A stretch of 64,000 nt of DNA from Prochlorococcus sp. AG-402-K16. GTDB taxonomy: Bacteria; Cyanobacteriota; Cyanobacteriia; PCC-6307; Cyanobiaceae. Both the position numbers and the translations under genes were made by a program. The notes under the pieces are model-generated. The model was not told where the DNA came from. It ran no database searches and worked only from the letters and a program-made list of their open reading frames with translations. Below, piece after piece: positions 8,069-53,337 of the stretch (position 1 is the stretch's first letter; every line of letters starts with the position of its first letter). The DNA is taken from contig QCIH01000003.1 of NCBI GenBank assembly GCA_003216795.1, positions 1 through 64,000 of the forward strand. Direction: 5' to 3'.

Positions 8069-11000
8069 TTATAAAATCACGGGATCAACTAAAGCAAATT
8101 CAATATCGCTTTCTGTCCATGTCTCTCCATTCATATTTAAGGTGAGGAATCCTACAGAAGGAGAACTTGCTCCTTGATTCCAATATTGCCATTGAATATT
8201 GGAATCTTCTGTACGAGTGACTTCTAATTGACTTGCATGAGAACTCTTGTGATAGAAAATAATCTTGTCGATACCAGATTCAAAGTCATTGATTTGATGT
8301 TCTGGAGATAATGCACTACCAGTGATTGAATCAGTAGGATTGGCAAGAAACCCAAACACATCTGCTCCTTCTCCACCCCAAAAAGATGAATTGTGATGAG
8401 CAATGAGAGTGTCATCACCGTCACCGCCATAGACCGTGCCATCTGATCCAAGAATAGAATCATTACCCTCACCGGCATAAACAGTGGCAATCCCACCACC
8501 TGCTCGTGAAGAAGAATCATAAAGTGTTCGTGATTCTGTACTGGTCATATCAATGAGATCATCTCCCTTACCGGCATAAAGGGCATTGATATTTTGATAG
8601 CGAGGGGTATAGGACCGACCAAAGGCATCGGTTTGCGTTTCTAATGATCCAAAATAATCGCTGTAAGTATCTTGTAAGAAGTAAGCATCGCCATTGCTTG
8701 AGTCTGTTAAATAGATATCGAGTGTTGGTAGTCGAGTGGGATCTCCTTCTGCCATTACATCAACAATGACATCATGAAAAGAATTTTTACCTTGCACACT
8801 GAACTTGAGGTCAGAGATTTTTCCGTTTTCAAAGGTATAAGTTGATTTGGCACCGTATTTATAAACACCATCGGAGGTGCTGCCCATTTTTAAATCGTCG
8901 GAAATATATGTACTACTGACGGAACTCAAATCAAGATCATTGCTTAACAAGATGGATCGTTCTTCTCTGCCATAGGTTTGCAAACCATTGCCATTAACGT
9001 ATGAACCCGAATCAAAATGAACATAGTCAGCACCACCTTTAGGTTGGGCATAAATCGGTAGATTGGTTGAGGTCTCAGTTGGTTGAGTATTAGAAGTTCC
9101 ACCAGACAATGTCTGTAATTGATTCATATTGATTTCTTCTGATTGATCTATTCCTTGCTCTAATTCTTGAATGACAACTCCAGTACTAGGATCGACTTGA
9201 TTTTCGATTATTCTTATTCCGTCAATAATTATTGAAAGAATAGAAAAACTCGCTTTGCCATCATTTATAGCAGGAATACTGTAACTATCAGTAGTAACTG
9301 TTTCATCAAAACCTTGAGCATCTTGATAGGAAATTACTGCTCTTATAGATTTTCCATCTTCACTCGCTCCCACCGTATAGGTAGAGTCAGTACTGACTTC
9401 ATTCCAACTTAAATTGTCAGATGATGTCTCCCAGCTGTCACTTGAATTTGCATTATATCTAGCTAAATAACTGGTCCCATTGCTGCCTCCAGTAAATAAA
9501 ATCGAACCATCTGATGAGACCGTTAGATCTTGAATAGAGTGTGTATTTATATCTTCAATAGATGAGAACTCTTCTGAACTAATAAGATCTCCCTCTGAAT
9601 TGAATAAAGAGATATATGCATTACCTGCCTGAGTGCTTCCGGTAATATAAATAGAATCATTACCGCCTATCTCAAGTGAACTAACATATGCGCCTGTAAG
9701 TTTTGTCCATTGAATATTTCCACTCGAATCAAATTTACTTATAAAGCCACTGTAGTGATAATCATTAATTTGACCGCCTAGATCACCCGTAGTTCCCCCT
9801 GCAACATAAATAGAACCATCATCACTAATTTTTATCAATTCCGATTCATCATATTTGCTGGAACCAAACATCTGAGTCCACAAGTTTGTTCCATCTGAAT
9901 TGTATTTAGCAATAAAGCCGTTACTACTTCCCTGATTTTCTTGCGCTATTTGTAATCTCTGATCATAAAAAAAAGTACCTTCTGTTCTACCTGTAACGTA
10001 AATAAACCCATCTTTATCAACCGTTATTGCATCGGCCTCATCATATTGATAGCTGTTTATTAATTGGGCCCATTCCTTTGTTCCATCTGAATTGTATTTA
10101 CTAATATGTCCAGCACCTTGATGAGCGTCTCCTGTGCCTAAAATACCTTCTTCTGTATCTCCGGTTACGTAAATAGAACCGTCTTGAGCAACAACAACAC
10201 CCTCTATATCGTCATCAGAGGAACCTCCTAAGAGTTTTGTCCATTTCCTATCACCTGTTGAATCATATTTAATAATGAATCCCTCTCGCGAACCAAAATT
10301 AGGAATCGATTGATCATTAAATTCACGAACACCCCAACCACTCGAATCTTCTCCTCTTGTAGATCCAACAACATAAACGGAACCATCACTACTTATTGAA
10401 ATATCTTCTGCTGAAAACTCCCAATCACCTTCTACCGTTGATTTATCAGTAGCGGATTCTCTCCAGATTTCATTACCGTTAATATCATGTTTGACAAGGA
10501 TTCCAGGTCCTTGAGTTCCGTCTTGATATCCCCAACCATAAATATAATCACCATGAATAGCTAAGCTATAAAGATCTAAGTAATGTCTGCCAGTACCATG
10601 ATTTTCTGACTCTTCTGAATCTAATGTTTTAATCCAGTTTCCCTCAGGATTTCCTCTGAATTCTCCTCCTGAAATATTTCCCACAGAAGGAGGTTCTGAT
10701 GGTGTGGGGGGAACATAAGCATTCGCAGCAGATGTCTCCCAGCTGTCACTTGAATTTGCATTATATCTAGCTAAATAACTGGTCCCATTGCTGCCTCCAG
10801 TAAATAAAATCGAACCATCTGATGAGACCGTTAGATCTTGAATAGAGTGTGTATTTATATCTTCAATAGATGAGAACTCTTCTGAACTAATAAGATCTCC
10901 CTCTGAATTGAATAAAGAGATATATGCATTACCTGCCTGAGTGCTTCCGGTAATATAAATAGAATCATTACCGCCTATCTCAAGTGAACTAACATATGCG

Positions 11001-13264
11001 CCTGTAAGTTTTGTCCATTGAATATTTCCACTCGAATCAAATTTACTTATAAAGCCACTGTAGTGATAATCATTAATTTGACCGCCTAGATCACCCGTAG
11101 TTCCCCCTGCAACATAAATAGAACCATCATCACTAATTTTTATCAATTCCGATTCATCATATTTGCTGGAACCAAACATCTGAGTCCACAAGTTTGTTCC
11201 ATCTGAATTGTATTTAGCAATAAAGCCGTTACTACTTCCCTGATTTTCTTGCGCTATTTGTAATCTCTGATCATAAAAAAAAGTACCTTCTGTTCTACCT
11301 GTAACGTAAATAAACCCATCTTTATCAACCGTTATTGCATCGGCCTCATCATATTGATAGCTGTTTATTAATTGGGCCCATTCCTTTGTTCCATCTGAAT
11401 TGTATTTACTAATATGTCCAGCACCTTGATGAGCGTCTCCTGTGCCTAAAATACCTTCTTCTGTATCTCCGGTTACGTAAATAGAACCGTCTTGAGCAAC
11501 AACAACACCCTCTATATCGTCATCAGAGGAACCTCCTAAGAGTTTTGTCCATTTCCTATCACCTGTTGAATCATATTTAATAATGAATCCCTCTCGCGAA
11601 CCAAAATTAGGAATCGATTGATCATTAAATTCACGAACACCCCAACCACTCGAATCTTCTCCTCTTGTAGATCCAACAACATAAACGGAACCATCACTAC
11701 TTATTGAAATATCTTCTGCTGAAAACTCCCAATCACCTTCTACCGTTGATTTATCAGTAGCGGATTCTCTCCAGATTTCATTACCGTTAATATCATGTTT
11801 GACAAGGATTCCAGGTCCTTGAGTTCCGTCTTGATATCCCCAACCATAAATATAATCACCATGAATAGCTAAGCTATAAAGATCTAAGTAATGTCTGCCA
11901 GTACCATGATTTTCTGACTCTTCTGAATCTAATGTTTTAATCCAGTTTCCCTCAGGATTTCCTCTGAATTCTCCTCCTGAAATATTTCCCACAGAAGGAG
12001 GTTCTGATGGTGTGGGGGGAACATAAGCATTCGCAGCAGATGTCTCCCAGCTGTAATTTAAAGTGCCAGTTCCATCCGGGTCAGCAGAATCTTCAGCAAT
12101 ACTTAAAGTATTCCCAACTGCTGCTGTTCCGGTGATAGAAAAACTGGCATCACCATCATCTACATAAGGAATTGTAGAAATGGAAGTAATAACGGTTTCA
12201 TCAAAACCTTGAGCATCTTGATAAGAAATTACTGCCCTTATAGATTTTCCTTCTTCACTAGCACCTACTGTATAAGTTGCATTTGTTCCAACTGGACTCC
12301 AAGTGGAATTATCTGTAGATGTTTGCCAGCTGTAATTTAAAGTGCCAGTTCCATCCGGGTCAGCAGAATCTTCAGCAATACTTAAAGTATTCCCAACTGC
12401 TGCTGTTCCGGTGATAGAAAAACTGGCATCACCATCATCTACATAAGGAATACTAGAGGTAGAAGTAGTTACTGTTTCATCAAAACCTTGAGCATCTTGA
12501 TAGGAAATTACTGCTCTTATAGATTTTCCTGCTTCACTTGCTCCTACTGTATAAGTTGCATTTGTTCCGACGACACTCCAGTTGGAATTATCTGTAGATG
12601 TTTGCCAGCTATAACTTAAAGTTCCTGTACCGTCAGGGTCAGCAGAATCTTCACTAATACCTAAAGTATTTCCGACTGCTGCAGTTCCAATTATTGAAAA
12701 ACTTGCATCTCCTGAGTCAACTCTTAGATTATCAAAATAACTATATGCTCCTCTTCCATAACGCCAGTTTGCACCAACTCTAATGGTTAAAGAATGTGTA
12801 CCTATATCAAGGAGTTTTGATCCCCCCATAGACCAACCCCATAATTGCCCTTCTCTGGCAGCCGTGCCATGACCATCTAAATTTTCACCATTAACTAATA
12901 AATTATGGTTTATACCATATTTATTTTCTAAGAATGTAGCTGCATAAGCAAAATTATCTACATTAAAAACATAGGTCCCTTCTTCACTAACATTAAATTC
13001 TTGAGTTAAGTCTATATATTGGTATTCATTACTATCCCCATTGTCATATCCATATATTTGAAGAGCGGATCCATCTATTTCAGGCGAACCATAAGATAAA
13101 TAATTTGAATTATCGATGTAACTAAGCGCATTTGTATAATCTGGCTCTACAATTTCATATCCTTCATAACTTACGGTTGAATTAGATGTTGTTAATGTCC
13201 AACCAGAAAGATCATTGAAATCTTTATTGTTAATTTGAATCTTTGATGATGGAGTAGACACCAT
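8069..13264 (-). CDS. RTX-type secreted modular protein with Ig-like repeats and a duplicated SBBP-type beta-propeller module (1731 aa)
   Basis: It starts at ATG 13264 with no signal peptide. Residues about 1-185 are a beta-rich domain ending in YFDNLRVDSG. Then come 93-residue Ig-like repeats (AAVGNTLSIAEDSADPDG, TYTVGASE, IRAVISYQDAQGFDETV). A 436-residue module appears twice, identically, at about residues 406-1278. It is built of SBBP-like propeller repeats (DGSIYVTG, KYNSDGT.W). The interrupted Ig-like repeat then resumes. The C-terminal part carries RTX-type glycine-rich calcium motifs (YAGKGDDLI, YAGEGNDSI, YGGDGDDTL, WGGEGADVF) and a serralysin-like tail. This fits a type I secretion substrate acting at or beyond the cell surface. 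No secretion genes are seen nearby. GC is higher than in the polysaccharide region. The ligand is unknown. Confidence 0.88.
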   Translation of the reverse strand: MVSTPSSKIQINNKDFNDLSGWTLTTSNSTVSYEGYEIVEPDYTNALSYIDNSNYLSYGSPEIDGSALQIYGYDNGDSNEYQYIDLTQEFNVSEEGTYVFNVDNFAYAATFLENKYGINHNLLVNGENLDGHGTAAREGQLWGWSMGGSKLLDIGTHSLTIRVGANWRYGRGAYSYFDNLRVDSGDASFSIIGTAAVGNTLGISEDSADPDGTGTLSYSWQTSTDNSNWSVVGTNATYTVGASEAGKSIRAVISYQDAQGFDETVTTSTSSIPYVDDGDASFSITGTAAVGNTLSIAEDSADPDGTGTLNYSWQTSTDNSTWSPVGTNATYTVGASEEGKSIRAVISYQDAQGFDETVITSISTIPYVDDGDASFSITGTAAVGNTLSIAEDSADPDGTGTLNYSWETSAANAYVPPTPSEPPSVGNISGGEFRGNPEGNWIKTLDSEESENHGTGRHYLDLYSLAIHGDYIYGWGYQDGTQGPGILVKHDINGNEIWRESATDKSTVEGDWEFSAEDISISSDGSVYVVGSTRGEDSSGWGVREFNDQSIPNFGSREGFIIKYDSTGDRKWTKLLGGSSDDDIEGVVVAQDGSIYVTGDTEEGILGTGDAHQGAGHISKYNSDGTKEWAQLINSYQYDEADAITVDKDGFIYVTGRTEGTFFYDQRLQIAQENQGSSNGFIAKYNSDGTNLWTQMFGSSKYDESELIKISDDGSIYVAGGTTGDLGGQINDYHYSGFISKFDSSGNIQWTKLTGAYVSSLEIGGNDSIYITGSTQAGNAYISLFNSEGDLISSEEFSSIEDINTHSIQDLTVSSDGSILFTGGSNGTSYLARYNANSSDSWETSAANAYVPPTPSEPPSVGNISGGEFRGNPEGNWIKTLDSEESENHGTGRHYLDLYSLAIHGDYIYGWGYQDGTQGPGILVKHDINGNEIWRESATDKSTVEGDWEFSAEDISISSDGSVYVVGSTRGEDSSGWGVREFNDQSIPNFGSREGFIIKYDSTGDRKWTKLLGGSSDDDIEGVVVAQDGSIYVTGDTEEGILGTGDAHQGAGHISKYNSDGTKEWAQLINSYQYDEADAITVDKDGFIYVTGRTEGTFFYDQRLQIAQENQGSSNGFIAKYNSDGTNLWTQMFGSSKYDESELIKISDDGSIYVAGGTTGDLGGQINDYHYSGFISKFDSSGNIQWTKLTGAYVSSLEIGGNDSIYITGSTQAGNAYISLFNSEGDLISSEEFSSIEDINTHSIQDLTVSSDGSILFTGGSNGTSYLARYNANSSDSWETSSDNLSWNEVSTDSTYTVGASEDGKSIRAVISYQDAQGFDETVTTDSYSIPAINDGKASFSILSIIIDGIRIIENQVDPSTGVVIQELEQGIDQSEEINMNQLQTLSGGTSNTQPTETSTNLPIYAQPKGGADYVHFDSGSYVNGNGLQTYGREERSILLSNDLDLSSVSSTYISDDLKMGSTSDGVYKYGAKSTYTFENGKISDLKFSVQGKNSFHDVIVDVMAEGDPTRLPTLDIYLTDSSNGDAYFLQDTYSDYFGSLETQTDAFGRSYTPRYQNINALYAGKGDDLIDMTSTESRTLYDSSSRAGGGIATVYAGEGNDSILGSDGTVYGGDGDDTLIAHHNSSFWGGEGADVFGFLANPTDSITGSALSPEHQINDFESGIDKIIFYHKSSHASQLEVTRTEDSNIQWQYWNQGASSPSVGFLTLNMNGETWTESDIEFALVDPVIL
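9424..12055 (-). repeat. Exact-looking tandem duplication, unit 1308 bp (436 codons)
   Basis: Sequence from about 9424 is repeated with a 1308-base offset from about 10732 to about 12040. The word gatgtctcccagctgt occurs at the start, the junction and the end. The two translated copies are identical along all 436 residues, and every DNA stretch I compared matched. The unit is a multiple of three, so the frame is kept. The event is either very recent, under active gene conversion, or an assembly product. Confidence 0.9.
12050..12720 (-). repeat. Tandem 279-bp (93-codon) Ig-like coding repeats
   Basis: The segment encoding AAVGNTL recurs near 12112, 12391 and 12670, a period of 279 bases. The copies are nearly identical in DNA. 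A fourth unit is split: its first strand ends at YSWETS, then the two propeller modules intervene, and the rest (NLSWNEVS to QGFDETVTT) lies at about 9280-9425. Confidence 0.85.
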
Positions 13265-43813: not shown

Positions 43814-44269
43814 ATGAGAAATAATATTTCCAAGATTAATTGGATTTTGATTAATCGGTTTGCAATAGGCCCTCAGCCAAGTAACACATCAGATTTAAAT
43901 TTTCTAAAACAGAATAATATAAGGACTATATTTTCAGTTTGTTATGAGGATGAGATATTAATTCCAAAGGAAATAAAAGAATTTTTCAATCATAACGTTT
44001 GTAGCCTTCCTGATCATAAGAAAGGATATTTACCTACTAAAAAAGAAATAAATAAAACTATATTAATTCTTCATGATTTAATTTCTTTAGGTCCAGTTTA
44101 TATTCATTGTTTTGCAGGGGTAGAAAGATCACCTCTGATCTCAATGGCATATTTAATTAAATTTAGAAATTTAAAACCGCAACAGGCTTTAGATTATTTA
44201 ATGCAAGTTCATCCAGGTACTAATCCTCTAACAAATCAATTAAATTTGCTTAGTAAAATAAATAGTTAG
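43814..44269 (+). CDS. Dual-specificity-type protein tyrosine phosphatase
   Basis: The 151-residue product has VYIHCFAGVERSPLIS, the C-x5-R-S loop with Cys99, and LPDHKKG with Asp67 as a candidate general acid. This is the DSP/VH1-like class, not the low-molecular-weight Wzb class normally paired with Wzc. It lies 7 bases after the Wzc gene, so it probably dephosphorylates the Wzc tyrosine tail. Its stop overlaps by 4 bases the end of the convergent nucleotidyltransferase gene. Confidence 0.8.
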   Translation: MRNNISKINWILINRFAIGPQPSNTSDLNFLKQNNIRTIFSVCYEDEILIPKEIKEFFNHNVCSLPDHKKGYLPTKKEINKTILILHDLISLGPVYIHCFAGVERSPLISMAYLIKFRNLKPQQALDYLMQVHPGTNPLTNQLNLLSKINS

Positions 44270-45489
44270 CTTAGGAAATTAGAATTTTTTATAAATAATT
44301 TTAAATCAGATATTAATCTTTTTGTTTGATCAAGTATTGCTTGAAGTAAATTCTTATCTTTTCCTGTAATAGGATCATTAAAAGATGAGGGCAATAATAT
44401 AAACCCTAAAATAATTCTGAATTTATCTTTAAAATTATTTGTAATTCTAAGGTTTTTTTGAAAAATATCTTTATAGTCCCAAAAATTAAGTTTAGAATTT
44501 TTCATTTTTTTATTAAAAAATTTAATCTGACTTTTTCTAGAGATTTTTATTATTTTTTTTATATTCGGATTAGATTTATTGTGTTTTAAAAAATATGAAA
44601 TATATTGCGAATTAGTATAAAAGTAACATAAATCTAGGGTGTCTTTCATTAATGCATTAATTTTAAAGTCATTTTTATTATGAGTTATTATTTTTTTTAC
44701 TAGTAAATTAATATCGATTATGTTCTTTAAGCTATCCCAATTTCCTTTAGCTGAGTTGTAGCAGGCATATACTAATGAATCCCTAATGCCTAGGGTGTAA
44801 ATTTCTTGTCCACCGATAACATAAGACTCTTTCTTTTGCCATGCCTCTTCAAAATTGGGTAAATCATATCTACTTTTACAAAGCGACCAATGTAAATCAA
44901 TAATTTGTTTTTGATTAAAAATTGTTCTTTTTAATGGTAATTCATTTCTTACTTTTAAAGAGTATCTGCCACTTGCAGATTTTAAATCTTTAGGTAAATA
45001 TCCATAAACTCTATCGAAACCATTAATTTTTAGTAAGTTAATTACCTCAATAATATTTTCTTCTTTTACAAAGATATCGATATCCCCACAGCCTCTTGAA
45101 GATAATTTATTAGTAATTTGCAAAGAGAGAGGAATACCTTTGAATATTAAAATAGGTATTTTTTCAGAATGAAAAATTTTAGATAAATTTTTAATAGTAT
45201 TTGCAATAATTAAAGAACCAATTTTTTCTTCTCTCGCAATTTTACTGATCTCATTTCTCAATTCAGGTAGATATTTATCTAAGCTTTTATATTCACTAAA
45301 GAAAATAATTAATCCTTGATTTTTTAAGAATTTAAGAAGTTCATATTTAGAATAATTAGTAAATTTATTTTTTAAATAAAAAAATTTTCTCTTATAAGAT
45401 TTATTATTATTGCCTAGAATAATCCTAAGAATATAAATTGTAATTTGTTGATAATAACTTTGTTCCATTTTTTTTAATGAAATCATCAA
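44266..45489 (-). CDS. NTP_transf_5-family nucleotidyltransferase, last gene of the lasso operon
   Basis: The 407-residue product has IPILIFKGIPLSLQI (Lys-Gly motif) followed by SSRGCGDIDIFVK, whose Asp136/Asp138 pair is the metal site, and RTIFNQKQIIDLHWSLC with the D-L-H-W motif. This is the NTP_transf_5 family. In lasso clusters of the pseudomycoidin type, such an enzyme acts on the phosphorylated C-terminal Ser and transfers sugar or nucleotide units. It is the promoter-distal gene of a minus-strand run with HprK-like kinase, precursor, cyclase and exporter, so a tailoring role is likely. The end overlaps the phosphatase gene by 4 bases. Confidence 0.75.
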   Translation of the reverse strand: MMISLKKMEQSYYQQITIYILRIILGNNNKSYKRKFFYLKNKFTNYSKYELLKFLKNQGLIIFFSEYKSLDKYLPELRNEISKIAREEKIGSLIIANTIKNLSKIFHSEKIPILIFKGIPLSLQITNKLSSRGCGDIDIFVKEENIIEVINLLKINGFDRVYGYLPKDLKSASGRYSLKVRNELPLKRTIFNQKQIIDLHWSLCKSRYDLPNFEEAWQKKESYVIGGQEIYTLGIRDSLVYACYNSAKGNWDSLKNIIDINLLVKKIITHNKNDFKINALMKDTLDLCYFYTNSQYISYFLKHNKSNPNIKKIIKISRKSQIKFFNKKMKNSKLNFWDYKDIFQKNLRITNNFKDKFRIILGFILLPSSFNDPITGKDKNLLQAILDQTKRLISDLKLFIKNSNFLS

Positions 45490-45535: not shown

Positions 45536-47185
45536 TCAATCTATATTATTTAAATCTATTACTTTAGTCGCTAAATCAACTAATTTTGAATCATGAGTAG
45601 CAATTATAGTTATTTTATTTTTTGATCTTTCTTTGATTATTCTCTTTACAATGGATACTGAATCTTCATCTAGATATACGGTAGGTTCGTCAAGTATCTC
45701 TATATTTTTATTTTTAAACCAAGCTCTTATAAGACAGATTCTCTGAATCTCACCCCCAGAAAGAAAATCAGTTGTTAAATTTACTCTCTGATTTAATCCT
45801 TTATTTTTTACTAATAAATGTAAAAGATTTAATTGAGAAAACCATTTATTTATTAAAACATCATTTCTATTTAAATATTCTAGATCGTTATAATTATCCG
45901 TTTGCATAGTTATGTTCTCCCTTAGACTACCCTCGTACAAAATCCCTTTCTGTGGGGCATATGCTATTAAATTTTTTAATTTATTTGAATCTCTTATTCC
46001 TTTAAAAATTAATTTATTGTTTTTATTTATTAAATTCCATTTACTTGATTGTGGATTATTAAAACCCAATAAACTATCAATTAAAGTTGTTTTACCAGAA
46101 CCTGAGTCTCCTCTTATTATAAGAATTTCTCCTGAATTCAGAGAAATTTCCTTATTTTTTTCTGATGAAAACCAAGTAAATTTTTTAATTAAAGGAGATT
46201 TTCTAAAAAATATATTTTCTAGAATAATGTCGTCTGATTGAAGTTGCCTTTTTATCTTTTTATATTTTTCATAACCTGGCAAAGCTAATTTAACTCTTCT
46301 ATATGAGCTTATTATTAAACTCAGGGAGTTAGTGCATTTTAAACCAAAAACAATTGTTGCAGCTATTGTTTTATAATCTTTATTATTGCTATTGAACAAC
46401 CAAATACCAATAATAATTAATATAAATAAATCCCTGAATAAATCGAATATACCTTGTCTTTTTATATTTTGTCGAAGTATAGATCTATATTCTGTATTGT
46501 CATTAGTGAACCTTTCCATTATCCAATTTTCTGCTGATGCAGCTTTAATACCTTTTAAGCCATGCAAGCTATCTCCAAGAGTTCTTTGTAAGTCTATATT
46601 AAGTTTGCTTTCTAGATTGCCTAATTCTGTACTTTTTGATCTTTGAAATATTGCTGCAAGTAAAGTAGCTATTGAAGCAAAAAATATTATTATTAATGAA
46701 TTTTTAGTAAATATATTAAGAACTAAGAAATAAATAAAAAATGAAAGAAGTCCATTTAAAGAGGCAATTGATTGATCAAGGCTTATTATTGCTCCATTTA
46801 TATTATTTATCAATGATCCTAGAATTTCAGCTCTATTAATGTTTTTTAATTTATCAAAACTTCCGAAAATTGTATCTTTTAATAAAGATTGCCTAAGTGA
46901 ATCTTTAAATTCTGATCGTATTGATTCTTTTAAAATGGATACTATAAGTCTAATTATTCCTCTCATAAAAAGAAGAACTATTAATGTTAAGACCTTTTTT
47001 GAAATATCAAGGTTACTATTTGTAATTACTTCCGAATAAGAAGAATTAAATAAAATACCTATAGCAGTGCTTAGGCTGAAAAACTCTAAAATTGTTGAAA
47101 TTGCATTCAAAGATATTAATAATAAAAAAATATTTAAACCTGCTTCATCTATTATTTCTTTCAATAAATTAAAGGTTTTGCTCAT
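45536..47185 (-). CDS. ABC exporter of the lasso cluster (D protein)
   Basis: The 549-residue fused transporter has an N-terminal membrane domain of about 300 residues. The ATPase carries IRGDSGSGKTTLIDSLLG (Walker A), AYAPQKGILYEGSLRENI (Q-loop), DFLSGGEIQRICLIRAWF (signature), NIEILDEPTVYLDE (Walker B) and IATHD (H-loop). No N-terminal C39 peptidase domain is present, as in lasso D proteins, where a separate B2 protease cleaves the leader. It sits between the hydroxylase and nucleotidyltransferase genes. It should export, and confer immunity to, the mature peptide. Confidence 0.82.
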   Translation of the reverse strand: MSKTFNLLKEIIDEAGLNIFLLLISLNAISTILEFFSLSTAIGILFNSSYSEVITNSNLDISKKVLTLIVLLFMRGIIRLIVSILKESIRSEFKDSLRQSLLKDTIFGSFDKLKNINRAEILGSLINNINGAIISLDQSIASLNGLLSFFIYFLVLNIFTKNSLIIIFFASIATLLAAIFQRSKSTELGNLESKLNIDLQRTLGDSLHGLKGIKAASAENWIMERFTNDNTEYRSILRQNIKRQGIFDLFRDLFILIIIGIWLFNSNNKDYKTIAATIVFGLKCTNSLSLIISSYRRVKLALPGYEKYKKIKRQLQSDDIILENIFFRKSPLIKKFTWFSSEKNKEISLNSGEILIIRGDSGSGKTTLIDSLLGFNNPQSSKWNLINKNNKLIFKGIRDSNKLKNLIAYAPQKGILYEGSLRENITMQTDNYNDLEYLNRNDVLINKWFSQLNLLHLLVKNKGLNQRVNLTTDFLSGGEIQRICLIRAWFKNKNIEILDEPTVYLDEDSVSIVKRIIKERSKNKITIIATHDSKLVDLATKVIDLNNID

Positions 47186-47289: not shown

Positions 47290-47838
47290 TTACCTAGTGA
47301 TAATTATATTACAAGTAATTCGCCAATAATTTAATTCATCATTTTTTACAAAACCTCCATTGTGTTTAGTATTTGATTTAAAAATTACAAACCTGCCAGG
47401 CTTGTAGTCTAATTTCTTATCATTTATCATTAATTCGCCTCCATCATTTTGATCCCATACAGGGTTTAAAAAACCTAAAATTGTCCAGTCAGATGTATCA
47501 GTAGAATCAACGTGGTCAAAAGTTTTTGAGTTACTTGATTTAGCACCAATGTGTATTCTTTTAATTTTATTAGGAAGATATAAATTATATTTATTTTTTA
47601 AATCTTTTTTTAACCTAAAAATTATAGATTGAAAGTAACCTGATAAGTATTTTATGTTAATAGTCTCATTTGATTGTATTTCAAGTCCTGGAAAACCTGT
47701 AAATGCTAATCGACCTGCTCCGTCATTCAATGATGATCGTGTTAAAGACCAATTGGGAGTATCTAGTAACTTATGATATAACCAAAGCAACTCTTCAACT
47801 CCTAGGATATTGTCTACTATGTAAAAATCTTTATCCAT
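47290..47838 (-). CDS. 2-oxoglutarate/Fe(II) hydroxylase (prolyl-4-hydroxylase-like), lasso tailoring candidate
   Basis: The core fold has FDHVDSTDTSDWTILGFLN (H-x-D), QNDGGELMIND, KPGRFVIFKSNTKHNGG (distal His) and YWRITCNI (2-oxoglutarate Arg). I place the start at ATG 47838, just after the cyclase stop (47850). The frame is open upstream to a TTG at 47874, which would add 12 residues and overlap the cyclase. The product is about 182 residues. The gene follows the cyclase, so the likely target is the lasso peptide; the precursor has no Asn/Cys and only one Pro, in the leader. Confidence 0.72.
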   Translation of the reverse strand: MDKDFYIVDNILGVEELLWLYHKLLDTPNWSLTRSSLNDGAGRLAFTGFPGLEIQSNETINIKYLSGYFQSIIFRLKKDLKNKYNLYLPNKIKRIHIGAKSSNSKTFDHVDSTDTSDWTILGFLNPVWDQNDGGELMINDKKLDYKPGRFVIFKSNTKHNGGFVKNDELNYWRITCNIIITR

Positions 47839-47849
47839 AACAAATTTTT

Positions 47850-49388
47850 TTATTTCTCTAACTCTATTAGCCAATGATTAATTTTATCAATTTTGTTTAT
47901 TAACCAACAAACATTATTCAAATAATTAAAATCTTCATTATTTTTTAGTAGAGATTCTATGTTTGAAGTCAATAAGTTTAAATCAAACCATTTATGTATA
48001 AGGTTATGCCATCTGGAAATTGATTTATGACTTTCGTTCAAAATATTTTTTAAGATTATTCGACGATTTTCAATATCATCTTTACCAATATGTTTTTGTG
48101 GATTTCTTATAAAAAATTCATTTAAATATGGTTTAAAAACTTCTCTGATTAATGATCTGAGTTCTTTCGAATTTGTTGCAAAAATCTTTGTATTTTCTAT
48201 TGATAACAATAAAGATATGATATTTTCATCAAGCATTGGGTATAATTTTTTCATGCCATAATATTCTGCTAATCTTTTTTCCTCTTCTACTCTTAATGAT
48301 AACCAGTTCGAATTTAGAGATTTTCTGATGCTTTCTTGCACCTTTAAATTATTATATCTTTCTAAATTATCTGAAGCAGGAATATAGTTTTGTAGATATT
48401 CAAAACCTTCATTTGTAAGAAACTTTTTTACATAATAAGACTGACTATTTCTCGGGTATTTAAGAAATTTCTGAAAATTTTTAAATCTTTTAAACCAATA
48501 ATCATTAATATTTTTTTTAAAAATTATTTTTAAGGCATCTTTTTTACTGCCTGTCCATTTAAGTAGCTCACTAAAATTTCCTTTTTCAAATAAATCTATA
48601 CCAACGTTATTGCCCATGTTACTGAGTGCTTGATCACCCCCTAACCCGCTAAATATAAGTTCACAATTTGCTTCCTTTAGACTCTTTAATCCTGCTAAAT
48701 TTGCTCCTACTTGTAATGGTGCTCCAAATATCTTTAATAAATTTTTATCTTCGTTTTTATTATTTTTAATATCTTTTTTTAAACAATTCTTAGAAAATAG
48801 TTTATAAAAATCTCTTATGTCTTCAATTAATTTCAAATTTTCTCCTTGTGGAGAAGTCCAAGTGAAAATGCGATCTTTTTTAATATTTAATCCCAAAACT
48901 AAGCTTCCAACTATTGCGTTTGAGTCTATTCCTGAACTATGTTCACAACCTAAATTTCCATCAACATTTTTGAGATTGTTTTTTAGATTATTTAAAAAAG
49001 TATTTCTGATATTCAAATATATTTCTTGTTCATTAATATATTCATTATTAGTTTTTAAAAAAGGATTATAGGACTTAAGTTTAATATTATTATTTTTACT
49101 TAATTGAACAAAGCAAGATCTTGGAATTCTCTTGATTCTTTGGTAGGGAGAGATATTTGTACTGTGGTTATTGAATAATATTGATGCAATGTATGCTGGA
49201 TTGACATCCTTTATTTGTGCGTCTTCATGCATTCCATATGCCTCTTCCCATGATTTCAAGATATATCCTTCCTCATTGTCATAATGCTTTTTTGATGGGT
49301 ATGCTTGGAAAAGAGGTCTTAAATTTAGATAATCAGTTTTATATATGCCAGTTTCTAGAGGTTTTGGCTCTTTACTTGGTAATTTCAT
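47850..49388 (-). CDS. Lasso cyclase, asparagine-synthetase-like (C protein)
   Basis: The 512-residue product resembles asparagine synthetase B. The ATP-pyrophosphatase loop is GCEHSSGIDSNAIVG (residues 147-161), a variant of S-G-G-x-D-S. Then come FSGLGGDQALSN (residues 246-257) and LAEYYGMKKLYPMLDENIISLLL near residue 360. The N-terminus starts MKLPSKEP and lacks the Cys2 of a glutaminase domain, as in lasso cyclases, which activate a side-chain carboxylate and form a macrolactam instead of using glutamine. It lies between B2 protease and hydroxylase, in the canonical lasso neighbourhood. Confidence 0.82.
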   Translation of the reverse strand: MKLPSKEPKPLETGIYKTDYLNLRPLFQAYPSKKHYDNEEGYILKSWEEAYGMHEDAQIKDVNPAYIASILFNNHSTNISPYQRIKRIPRSCFVQLSKNNNIKLKSYNPFLKTNNEYINEQEIYLNIRNTFLNNLKNNLKNVDGNLGCEHSSGIDSNAIVGSLVLGLNIKKDRIFTWTSPQGENLKLIEDIRDFYKLFSKNCLKKDIKNNKNEDKNLLKIFGAPLQVGANLAGLKSLKEANCELIFSGLGGDQALSNMGNNVGIDLFEKGNFSELLKWTGSKKDALKIIFKKNINDYWFKRFKNFQKFLKYPRNSQSYYVKKFLTNEGFEYLQNYIPASDNLERYNNLKVQESIRKSLNSNWLSLRVEEEKRLAEYYGMKKLYPMLDENIISLLLSIENTKIFATNSKELRSLIREVFKPYLNEFFIRNPQKHIGKDDIENRRIILKNILNESHKSISRWHNLIHKWFDLNLLTSNIESLLKNNEDFNYLNNVCWLINKIDKINHWLIELEK

Positions 49389-49403: not shown

Positions 49404-49805
49404 TTAATTAAAATAATTTTCTGAGGCAGGCGATAAATTTATATTTTTATTTGGATCATTTAACCAACAATGACAATTGATTTCTCCAAGTTTTGTTTTT
49501 TCAGCTCCAAAGCATATTACATTTGGAATTGCTAGTAAATCTAGGAAACATTGCCCAGTAATTGATCTACTTAAGCATGTACTCATATTTTGATTTAATG
49601 AGCTTTTTTTATTTAATATTTTTATTATTATTTTTTTACAAAATAATTTTCTTTTTTCATTTAATCTTATTTGAAAACGTTTAATAGGTCTTTTTTGTAT
49701 GAGTTTTAAGATTACTTTCCCAGGTAAAATTTGTATTAGTAGCCAGAAGTTGAAGTCAATAAATTTAAATATTAAATAGATTAATTTTCTTATAAAGTAT
49801 TTCAT
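49404..49805 (-). CDS. Lasso leader peptidase (B2, transglutaminase-like)
   Basis: The 133-residue product has the B2 pattern. STCLSRSITGQCFLDLLAI supplies the catalytic Cys77, INCHCWLND carries His112 (usual form H-A-W) and Asp117 follows in the family position. The N-terminal 45 residues are basic and hydrophobic, as in split B2 proteins. It should cleave the leader of the peptide encoded at 51309-51464. It begins 15 bases after the PqqD-like stop, and ends 15 bases before the cyclase start. Confidence 0.85.
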   Translation of the reverse strand: MKYFIRKLIYLIFKFIDFNFWLLIQILPGKVILKLIQKRPIKRFQIRLNEKRKLFCKKIIIKILNKKSSLNQNMSTCLSRSITGQCFLDLLAIPNVICFGAEKTKLGEINCHCWLNDPNKNINLSPASENYFN

Positions 49806-49820
49806 ATACTTTTATAGTAT

Positions 49821-50078
49821 TTAAACGCTTTCAATCATTTTCAAATTTAAACATTGTGATATGAAATCTTTTGTTTCCAATTCACAAGTTTCTTTATCAA
49901 TATCAAATTCCTCTAATAGGTTATTTATTAGATAACTAATAGAAAAAGTTTCATCTATTTGTTTCCAAATAAAGGATCCTGTAGAGTTTAAATTTAAGTA
50001 TTTAGCTGTTTCAGTATGAAAAAGACATATCTCTCCATCTAATTCTGTAGATAATACACTCTTAGACTTTTGGTACAA
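49821..50078 (-). CDS. PqqD-like RiPP recognition element (lasso B1)
   Basis: The 85-residue product has the PqqD fold wording: LSTELDGEICLFHTETAKYL, NLNSTGSFIWKQID, ISYLINNLLEEFDID and CLNLKMIES. Stand-alone proteins of this kind bind RiPP leaders and hand them to the B2 protease and cyclase. It lies in the B1-B2-C order typical of split lasso systems. The short length is normal. Confidence 0.87.
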   Translation of the reverse strand: MYQKSKSVLSTELDGEICLFHTETAKYLNLNSTGSFIWKQIDETFSISYLINNLLEEFDIDKETCELETKDFISQCLNLKMIESV

Positions 50079-50112: not shown

Positions 50113-51285
50113 TTATTTTTTATTTAGCAAATCTAAAATTTGGGGGATTAATATATTGAAATTTGGATTGCCTTCAAGGAGAATCGGCTCATTTTTTGTT
50201 GGGATCCAGTCCCATGCGACTTTATTTATTTCTGGCAATCTAGAATGCATTTCAATCGAAGCATTTAAACAACTTTTTATATTTACATTTCTGCAGTTGG
50301 GTTCTTTCTCTTGATTAGTCCATTTATCGATTATGTATTGGTGAGATATATTATTAATTTTGTTGGAATTTATGTTAAAGAATTTTTTTGAAAAATAATC
50401 AATAAAATAAATTTTTTTGTCAAGACATATTTCAATCCAGCAGTTATCAACTTTTATTTCGATATTCGATAATTTCTTTTGAGTTATTACTCTTATAACT
50501 GCTGATGGACTACTCCATGCTAAAGAATAATCGTTTTTTATATATGGCATTAATATCGCATTAGTTTTATTCTTTGTAGTCTTCTGCCAGTGACTGTAAA
50601 GTGCATTAAGATCTTTATAATTGATATTTAAATATTTATATTTAGTCCCTGCGGAATTACAGAATAAATTACTTGCAAATAGTTTGTTATCAAATAATCT
50701 ATATAAAATTATGTCTTTAGATTTTGAACCATTATCTGGTTTTAAAATAAGACCTGTTACTTTTAAATATGGTAAGATTTTGTTCTTATAAAATTGATTT
50801 AAAAAAACATCTTTTTGTTTTTCTTTACTATTATTTAAAACTATGTGATATGGCTTCCATTTATTTGGGGAAATTTTATAGAGTGAGCTTTTGTTATTAA
50901 GTAAATTTATTCCTTCTTTACAATTATTTGACCAATATTTCCTCTCTTCTTTATTAATATACTTTACCATTTTATAGGGTTTAAAATTTTTTAACTCTTC
51001 CCACGTTTTTATATTAAATCTAGAATAAATTTCTAATTCTTTTAATTCAAATGAATTGATTATGCAACTAAAAATAAGAAACTTTCTATCTATGTTGTAA
51101 TCAAATAAAAAATAAATATATTTAATTAAACGAGAAATTATCCATCTTATTAATAATAAGAATTCAATTGGGAAATATATTATATTTCTTTCACCATATC
51201 TGTATATAAATCTATTTTTTATGGATATGGCAATTGGAGATGGAGAATTAATATATCTTTTTAATTTTCTTAATATATCATTCAA
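50113..51285 (-). CDS. ATP-grasp enzyme of sugar-transfer-associated type
   Basis: The 390-residue product has VTGLILKPDNGSKSKDIILY (ATP-grasp nucleotide strand), then in the C-terminal half VAWDWIPTKNEPILLEGNPNFNI. E-G-N-P-x-x-N is the metal-binding strand of the sugar-transfer-associated ATP-grasp family. The N-terminal 120 residues hold hydrophobic segments and are unassigned. It sits between the precursor gene and the PqqD-like gene, 23 bases from the precursor stop, so it is probably a tailoring ligase of the peptide, or a leftover of glycan context. This family is not the graspetide ligase type. Confidence 0.6.
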   Translation of the reverse strand: MNDILRKLKRYINSPSPIAISIKNRFIYRYGERNIIYFPIEFLLLIRWIISRLIKYIYFLFDYNIDRKFLIFSCIINSFELKELEIYSRFNIKTWEELKNFKPYKMVKYINKEERKYWSNNCKEGINLLNNKSSLYKISPNKWKPYHIVLNNSKEKQKDVFLNQFYKNKILPYLKVTGLILKPDNGSKSKDIILYRLFDNKLFASNLFCNSAGTKYKYLNINYKDLNALYSHWQKTTKNKTNAILMPYIKNDYSLAWSSPSAVIRVITQKKLSNIEIKVDNCWIEICLDKKIYFIDYFSKKFFNINSNKINNISHQYIIDKWTNQEKEPNCRNVNIKSCLNASIEMHSRLPEINKVAWDWIPTKNEPILLEGNPNFNILIPQILDLLNKK

Positions 51286-51308: not shown

Positions 51309-51464
51309 TTAACTTCCAATAGTATCTGAAGTTTTCCCCTCTGTTTTTCTTCCTTCAAACACTCCTTCAATAAACTCACCTTTAGAATATGTATTTTTAA
51401 GTTCTAATGTATCAATAGATGGCTTGAACCATTTTCTTTTTTTCTTTTGATTAGAAAATTCCAT
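51309..51464 (-). CDS. Lasso peptide precursor (A), 51 residues
   Basis: A previously unmarked small gene from ATG 51464 to TAA 51309. The leader contains KWFKPSIDTLELKNT (residues 11-25), matching the lasso leader pattern of aromatic-x-x-P, hydrophobic spacing and a Thr near the cleavage site. The core follows: YSKGEFIEGVFEG (residues 26-38), then RKTEGKTSDTIGS (39-51). Acidic Glu33 and Glu37 are ring-closure candidates. If Thr25 is at position -2 the core starts with Ser27 and Glu33 is position 7; starting with Tyr26 gives Glu33 at 8; starting with Gly29 gives Glu37 at 9. The last residue is Ser, as in kinase-modified lasso peptides. It lies in the middle of a cluster with B1, B2, C and D genes. 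Too short for ordinary gene calling. Confidence 0.8.
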   Translation of the reverse strand: MEFSNQKKKRKWFKPSIDTLELKNTYSKGEFIEGVFEGRKTEGKTSDTIGS

Positions 51465-51518
51465 TTTCTTTTCAGTTCTATTCTAATATTACATCATGAT
51501 ATGTAATATACAATATTA

Positions 51519-52427
51519 TCATGTATAACTATATTTTTCTAAAGTCTCTTTAAAATTAGATGTAATATTTTTATATTCGTTTGGAGAAAGTTTTTCTTTA
51601 CCTTCTCCCAATATACCAGATCTAAAAAAACTATTACATGAATCTGGTCTCTCACTAAATCCATATTTACTTTCAATTTTTTTAAGCCTTTTGAAATCAG
51701 CATTAATCATTGTCTTAGATATTAATTCTTCATCAATAGGCAATCTGATAAATTTTAAAATTCGTTTAAAGAAAATTCTTGGATTTGTGTGAAGGTCTTC
51801 ATATTTAAGGACTAAAATAGGTATTTTCTTTTGTTCCGTCCAACTTTTAACGTGATGTTCCCATGTACCAAGAAATTGATAAACTTGCTTATGAATTTTA
51901 TCTTTGTTCCCAGCTAATGAAGCCTTTTTATTCACTAAAAATTTGACTGAATCAGTGTATGATATGTTCAGAAAATTGCTTAAAGAGATTGCAATATCTG
52001 CAGGATGTCTAATTAGATAAATGACGCCGGCGCAATTTTCATATGGAACTAAATAATTTTTTTTGTTAGATATCTTATAGAAACTATCATGAACTTTATG
52101 GTATCTAGGATTGTCATCGAAAATTTTCTTGTTTAAACCAATATGTATTCTTATCTTATCAAGTTCTTCTTTAGTTAAATCACTACTATCAATTCCTAAT
52201 TGATCATCAATCCAACTCCTATTGCTTAAAATTAGCCCAGTGTCTAATTGAATGTTATTCTCCTCAACAATCTCATCTTTATTTTTTTTAGCTTTAACTA
52301 AGTTAATATATGTTGCTATTAATATCCTGCACCAAGTATTACCTGATCGAGGATAGCTTGCAATATACCAATAATCAATCTCTTCTTGGCCTTTAAAATG
52401 ATTTTTATCTAATTTTGAATTTATCAA
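51519..52427 (-). CDS. PAPS-dependent sulfotransferase, lasso tailoring candidate
   Basis: The 302-residue product has IASYPRSGNTWCRILIATY, the 5'-phosphosulfate loop, and CAGVIYLIRHPADIAISLSN, the 3'-phosphate motif with R-x-P, as in sulfotransferase domain 1 proteins. The start is TTG 52427, directly after the kinase stop; no early ATG exists. It is 54 bases upstream of the precursor gene. Substrate is inferred to be the peptide (Tyr26, Ser or Thr), but a glycan is possible because the locus is also a polysaccharide island. Confidence 0.72.
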   Translation of the reverse strand: MINSKLDKNHFKGQEEIDYWYIASYPRSGNTWCRILIATYINLVKAKKNKDEIVEENNIQLDTGLILSNRSWIDDQLGIDSSDLTKEELDKIRIHIGLNKKIFDDNPRYHKVHDSFYKISNKKNYLVPYENCAGVIYLIRHPADIAISLSNFLNISYTDSVKFLVNKKASLAGNKDKIHKQVYQFLGTWEHHVKSWTEQKKIPILVLKYEDLHTNPRIFFKRILKFIRLPIDEELISKTMINADFKRLKKIESKYGFSERPDSCNSFFRSGILGEGKEKLSPNEYKNITSNFKETLEKYSYT

Positions 52428-52428
52428 T

Positions 52429-53337
52429 TTAACTATTATCTATTAAATCAAATTTCTTTAAATCTTTTTTCATAACATTTATGTTATTGGGTAAGGATAA
52501 AATACTTACATTTAATGAGTTTTGCATATTAGTTATAGTTTGAAATGTAAATCCTTCTTTACCAAGACCTCTTACAAATCTAGGTCTAAATAGGTTATTT
52601 CTTAATCCAATAAATACGGCTTTTTGATTATCAATAGAGTGTTCTACTATTTTTGATTGTTTCTTGTTTACAAGTAGATATATTTTTTCTATTTTGATAG
52701 GTTTACTCATGTTGTAATTTTTTTTATCTACGAGGATATATTTATTGATTTTATTTCTAACTCGAGAAAGTTTGTCCGAATCTAATTTAAAAGCATCAAC
52801 AGCATCTTGCCAAAGCTTAATTCTTGGTATCCCTGGCAAAACTAAATTAGATTTAACTGCTACTAAGTCATCAGATATAAGATCCCAACCTATTTCAGTT
52901 AAAGCATAAGCCAATGTGCTTTTACCTGCTCCAGATTCCCCTAGACAAATTATTGCTTTTCCGTTTTTAGAGAGAGCATTGCCATGAAAAACAAGCGTCT
53001 TTCTTTGGATTAAAATTGAACCTAATCCAGATCCCAGTATTATATTAAGAATATCTCTATTAGGAATAGTAAGATGCTTATCCCAGGCGATCTTATTCCC
53101 ATTTGTTATTCTCAATGACCCAATCCCCTCAATAGTTAATCTGATTTCCTCTTTCGCAATTTTTATAAAATAAGTATCCTCCTTTGTCTCTTGTAATCTA
53201 GGCCATAAAGATGAATCTTCTTTTTTAACTTCAACATCTGGTTTGATTTTAGATTTTGTTTCTGGAAGGTCCGGAATTTCTAGATCTTCAGAATGTAAAA
53301 TAAGATTAAAAACTTTATATCTATATATTTTTGTCAA
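52429..53337 (-). CDS. HprK-like serine kinase of the lasso cluster
   Basis: The 302-residue product has FHGNALSKNGKAIICLGESG (strand plus P-loop start), GESGAGKST at residues 133-141, WDLISDDLVAV with a D-D pair, and GIPRIKLWQDA. This is the HPr-kinase-like C-terminal domain in the form found in RiPP clusters. Paeninodin-type kinases of this family phosphorylate the C-terminal Ser of a lasso precursor, and the precursor here ends in Ser. The start is TTG 53337. It is the first gene of the minus-strand cluster. Confidence 0.8.
   Translation of the reverse strand: MTKIYRYKVFNLILHSEDLEIPDLPETKSKIKPDVEVKKEDSSLWPRLQETKEDTYFIKIAKEEIRLTIEGIGSLRITNGNKIAWDKHLTIPNRDILNIILGSGLGSILIQRKTLVFHGNALSKNGKAIICLGESGAGKSTLAYALTEIGWDLISDDLVAVKSNLVLPGIPRIKLWQDAVDAFKLDSDKLSRVRNKINKYILVDKKNYNMSKPIKIEKIYLLVNKKQSKIVEHSIDNQKAVFIGLRNNLFRPRFVRGLGKEGFTFQTITNMQNSLNVSILSLPNNINVMKKDLKKFDLIDNS

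Follow-up and report, generated by a model that had tools for sequence, protein, structure and literature searches.

The locus examined here, from Prochlorococcus sp. AG-402-K16 (genome, 1.67 Mb), raises the question of whether a short unannotated reading frame between two biosynthetic genes encodes the precursor of a lasso peptide and, if so, which ring that precursor would close. The frame lies at 51309 to 51464 on the minus strand of the window, by which we mean the whole 64,000-nucleotide stretch analyzed, and its 51 codons translate as MEFSNQKKKRKWFKPSIDTLELKNTYSKGEFIEGVFEGRKTEGKTSDTIGS. It is flanked by a sulfotransferase gene and an ATP-grasp gene, and no competing open reading frame (ORF) of at least 40 amino acids was found to overlap it. 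The gene that an earlier note had described as missed by annotation is thus present, with the neighbors and the freedom from rival frames given there. An AT-rich 9-bp inverted repeat is found upstream, at 51486 to 51509; as a hairpin it was discarded, being weak (z of −1.5) and absent from homologues, whose corresponding gaps fold no better.

The frame forms part of one minus-strand operon running from 53337 to 44266, in which neighboring genes overlap or are separated by short gaps throughout (Table 1). The operon is embedded in a capsule locus, its surroundings being polysaccharide and capsule genes. A dual-specificity-phosphatase-like gene adjoins it on the plus strand (43814 to 44269) and is also found nearby in the related loci L004, L005, and L038. 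As it is present in 3 of 10 cyclase-free Prochlorococcus, we rejected it as a lasso gene, and it is probably capsule related. Elsewhere in the window, a minus-strand gene (8069 to 13264) encodes a 1,731-residue secreted-type protein that includes an exact direct duplication (441 identical residues, 1,322 identical bases, 436-residue period), either a recent event or an assembly artifact.

Table 1. Genes of the putative lasso operon, in the order of transcription
Feature	Coordinates	Strand	Remarks
HPrK-like lasso precursor kinase	52429..53337	-	H118, G133, G136, G138, K139, S140, D156, D157 invariant in 5 homologues
Sulfotransferase	51519..52427	-	PF00685; 40-43% identity in five related clusters
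Predicted lasso precursor, 51 aa	51309..51464	-	Leader 1-28, core 29-51 GEFIEGVFE-GRKTEGKTSDTIGS, predicted ring Gly29-Glu37
ATP-grasp protein	50113..51285	-	Ddl-like fold, residues ~102-390; in 8/9 clusters
B1, PqqD-like leader-binding protein	49821..50078	-	Best PDB match TbiB1
B2 leader peptidase	49404..49805	-	Cys77 and His112 invariant
C macrolactam synthetase, Asn-synthetase type	47850..49388	-	S-x-G-x-D-S and GGDQ motifs invariant
2OG-Fe(II) oxygenase	47290..47874	-	Overlaps C gene; this cluster only
ABC transporter, probable exporter	45536..47185	-	
NTP_transf_5 protein	44266..45489	-	Pfam nucleotidyltransferase; candidate PsmN counterpart by annotation only

The three core enzymes of lasso biosynthesis were assigned by family searches. 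B1 scored above the cutoff for PF05402 (2e-15) and below the curated cutoff for NCBIfam lasso_PqqD (1e-16), and it matched TbiB1 at 2e-10. B2 likewise passed the cutoff for PF13471, with lasso_biosyn_B2 at 2e-7 (31.5 bits versus a cutoff of 33), and its two table residues are invariant in six sequences. C matched lass_lactam_cya at 2e-9, with a score far under the curated cutoff; a PDB sequence search with C returned no match at 0.01, and its predicted fold is closest to those of TsnB9, carbapenam and beta-lactam synthetases, and Asn synthetase.

Judging from the precursor gene, a conserved cluster, invariant leader and ring residues, and enzyme motifs, we consider it highly probable that the frame encodes the precursor of a phosphorylated-type class II (no Cys) lasso peptide with a nine-residue ring. 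In the proposed pathway, B1 would bind the leader via Trp12-x-x-Pro15-x-Ile17, the kinase would phosphorylate the linear precursor at its C-terminal Ser51, and the sulfotransferase, ATP-grasp protein, oxygenase, and NTP_transf_5 protein would perform other tailoring at unspecified sites. B2 would then cut after Lys28, and C would activate the Glu37 side chain with ATP and join it to the Gly29 amine, so that the ring GEFIEGVFE would encircle the tail GRKTEGKTSDTIGS, with export of the product by the ABC transporter. Threading is unreadable from sequence, however, and the B1/B2/C homologues might instead give a non-lasso RiPP, cyclic or branched and unthreaded, into which the ATP-grasp enzyme may have introduced cross-links or an extra amino acid. 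The conservation of the ATP-grasp gene in all but one of the nine clusters fits such a product, as does the model of its protein (mean pLDDT, 79.5), which matches Ddl ligases with a Z score of up to 14.6 and has a carboxylate-amine ligase fold, a shared fold that does not fix the substrate. Given the full lasso B1/B2/C set and the lasso-like leader and ring spacing, we regard a non-lasso product as unlikely.

To place the lasso reading in a wider context, we compared the locus with eight related clusters in picocyanobacteria. Of 266 Prochlorococcus genomes, four carry the cyclase, as do five genomes from elsewhere in the family (G273, G382, G386, G474, and G489). One same-genus relative is Prochlorococcus sp. 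AG-347-M23, which was also the one locus recovered when genome contigs were scanned for relatives; a scan of viral contigs found none. C of the window is 29 to 34% identical to those of its relatives, and the clusters are therefore old or fast changing. Gene order is shared: kinase, sulfotransferase, and precursor follow one another in the window, L004, L005, L014, L016, and L063, and in the first three of these the order continues identically through ATP-grasp, B1, B2, and C. The distance of B1 and B2 from C is about 10 kb in G236 and about 30 kb in G273, where the cluster (L015:1857-7781) is split, with transposase-like ORFs between precursors and cyclase. A precursor follows the sulfotransferase gene in six of seven cases; none was found after that of L019, nor in the parts of the G474 genome examined. 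In G386 (L063:2922-6041), three precursor copies have nearly identical leaders and different cores, which suggests leader reuse with core diversification. G489 (C351; L064:1282-4258) carries two decayed-looking precursor frames, both lacking the terminal Ser.

Homologous precursors were aligned, as the earlier note had proposed for locating the cleavage site. The nine intact sequences, the window's included, come from seven genomes, with two each from G273 and G386 (the third G386 frame lacks the terminal Ser). Pro15 and Glu37 are invariant and a terminal Ser is found in 9/9, a pattern that points to cleavage after Lys28, the predicted site. In this register, Trp falls at −17, Pro at −14, Thr25 at −4, and Ser27 at −2. 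The aromatic-x-x-Pro element of the leader consensus read earlier is thus borne out as Trp12-x-x-Pro15, and the leader conservation that the earlier note expected of a true precursor is seen in its Pro; the Thr that it read lies at −4. Trp(−17)/Pro(−14) match Tyr(−17)/Pro(−14) in the leader of Bradymonas BsfA (PMC10368454). Position −2 is Thr in L005, L014 to L016, G273, and G386, Ile in L004, and Ser in the window; experiments on BsfA have demonstrated Ile at −2, Thr being usual at this position and not strictly required (PMC10368454). The Trp-to-core distance is 17 in the window and L005 and 15 in the other precursors, so that two extra leader residues, together with Ser instead of Thr at −2, count against the register.

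With the invariant Glu as position 9, every intact precursor yields a nine-residue ring: GEFIEGVFE (Gly29-Glu37 of the window), TEEVPPVIE, GKESFNVPE, GKEFPNNEE, SGANNNKDE, SGAFNNRAE, GSKAPFGDE, GQQKGGGRE, and GSKIASVKE. In the same register, GNKKNNFKE is read from the third G386 copy. Position 9 is always acidic and position 8 in only some, and Glu9 is retained while position 8 varies among the fifth and sixth rings (the G273 paralogues) and the last two together with the third G386 copy. When starts at W+15/W+17, picked after the data had been seen, were applied to shuffles of six precursors, a common ring size arose in 54 of 20,000, or in 1 of 20,000 if the first residue had to be G/A/S/T/C. 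Two observations count against the register: the L005 ring would begin with Thr, outside the first residues observed by experiment (Gly, Cys, Ser, Ala, and more recently Asn [PMC12670498]), and one decayed-looking G489 copy has its Glu at 10 from its Gly. Cleavage two residues after Thr25 would place that Thr at the usual −2 and set the Trp-to-core spacing at 15, equal to that of L014 to L016, closing a seven-residue Ser27-Glu33 ring (or, from Tyr26, an eight-residue one). We hold this to be very unlikely, as Glu33 is not conserved whereas Glu37 is invariant, and a core begun at the matching residue of L005, the nearest homologue (50% identical), would have no acid at any position from 7 to 9. 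Both small rings fail because, whether the core starts at the first or the second residue past Thr, L005 and L004 lack an acid at positions 7 to 9. Thus, among the three rings that the earlier note had entertained, Gly29-Glu37 fits best and the unusual Ser- or Tyr-first lasso type finds no support; the ring of the window precursor is most likely of the ordinary nine-residue size.

That the frame arose by chance in the operon gap has nothing in its favor except small size and is next to negligible, since 35 of 5,000 dinucleotide shuffles of the 233-bp gap yielded an equally long ORF and other genomes carry the conserved leader, Glu, and terminal Ser at the matching position. The W-x-x-P-x-hydrophobic motif occurs in 2 of the 252 small ORFs of the window, and this frame is the only one of the two in a RiPP operon. 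We further searched 265 Prochlorococcus genomes with a profile built from six family precursors. Strong matches (E of 5.6e-16 or better) were confined to the four cyclase-bearing genomes; because these are rows of the profile itself, the weight of the search rests on absence elsewhere, the next best match outside them having an E of 0.07. Altogether, the B1/B2/C set, leader motif, conserved position, and homologues support the earlier assignment, and the frame very probably encodes a lasso precursor.

As for tailoring, the kinase has the complete H-G-G-G-K-S-D-D motif listed for HPrK-like lasso kinases (PMC10368454). PadeK, ThcoK, and PsmK modify a C-terminal Ser (PMC8498205, PMC9266682), and the motif, taken with the Ser that ends every intact precursor, suggests phosphorylation of the paeninodin type; because BsfK modifies core Ser3, not the C-terminal Ser (PMC10368454), the site here is one that we infer. 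PsmN adds hexose to the phosphate, and the NTP_transf_5 protein is a candidate counterpart. Sulfation of a conserved Tyr was rejected, the predicted window core having no Tyr and the cores no conserved one; the sulfotransferase may act on Ser/Thr or an added group. Eight ATP-grasp sequences all share Lys182, Glu285, Glu371, and Asn373. Considered as a graspetide-type ligase, which would make side-chain ester or amide links, the protein shows the Ddl-like fold and a weak Pfam match (PF14397). No description of an ATP-grasp protein in lasso clusters was found in the literature searched, mostly outside subscription journals, and this conserved partner is the part for which we found no counterpart in a described lasso pathway. 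A tentative idea, rather doubtful at present, is a picocyanobacterial lasso pathway in a capsule locus in which a lasso peptide, itself phosphorylated and sulfated, would gain a further residue or a second cross-link from the conserved ATP-grasp ligase.

Compared with paeninodin and pseudomycoidin of Firmicutes (PadeK/ThcoK and PsmK/PsmN), the operon shares an HPrK-like kinase, a C-terminal Ser, C, an exporter, and a nucleotidyltransferase gene, and a sulfotransferase gene is mentioned for some phosphorylated-type Firmicute clusters (PMC8498205, PMC9266682). It differs in its cyanobacterial host, its extra ATP-grasp and 2OG oxygenase genes, and its family scores below curated cutoffs. With BsfA/BsfK it has in common the kinase motif, the aromatic −17 and Pro −14, and, through L004, Ile at −2, whereas BsfK acts on core Ser3 and the BsfA ring is Gly1-Asp8 (PMC10368454). 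Canucin also has a 2OG-Fe(II) oxygenase in its cluster (the hydroxylase CanE; PMC8498205), a likeness of gene type. By its predicted features, the gene falls among those for phosphorylated lasso peptides; its uncommon traits are the host and the array of tailoring enzymes, most notably the conserved ATP-grasp protein. Lanthipeptides, the prochlorosins, are what Prochlorococcus is known for, and our full-text literature search turned up no account of a lasso peptide in this genus. Here, nine natural precursors indicate one ring register ahead of experiment, and the kinase, sulfotransferase, and ATP-grasp genes beside one small peptide make the tailoring enzymes directly testable.
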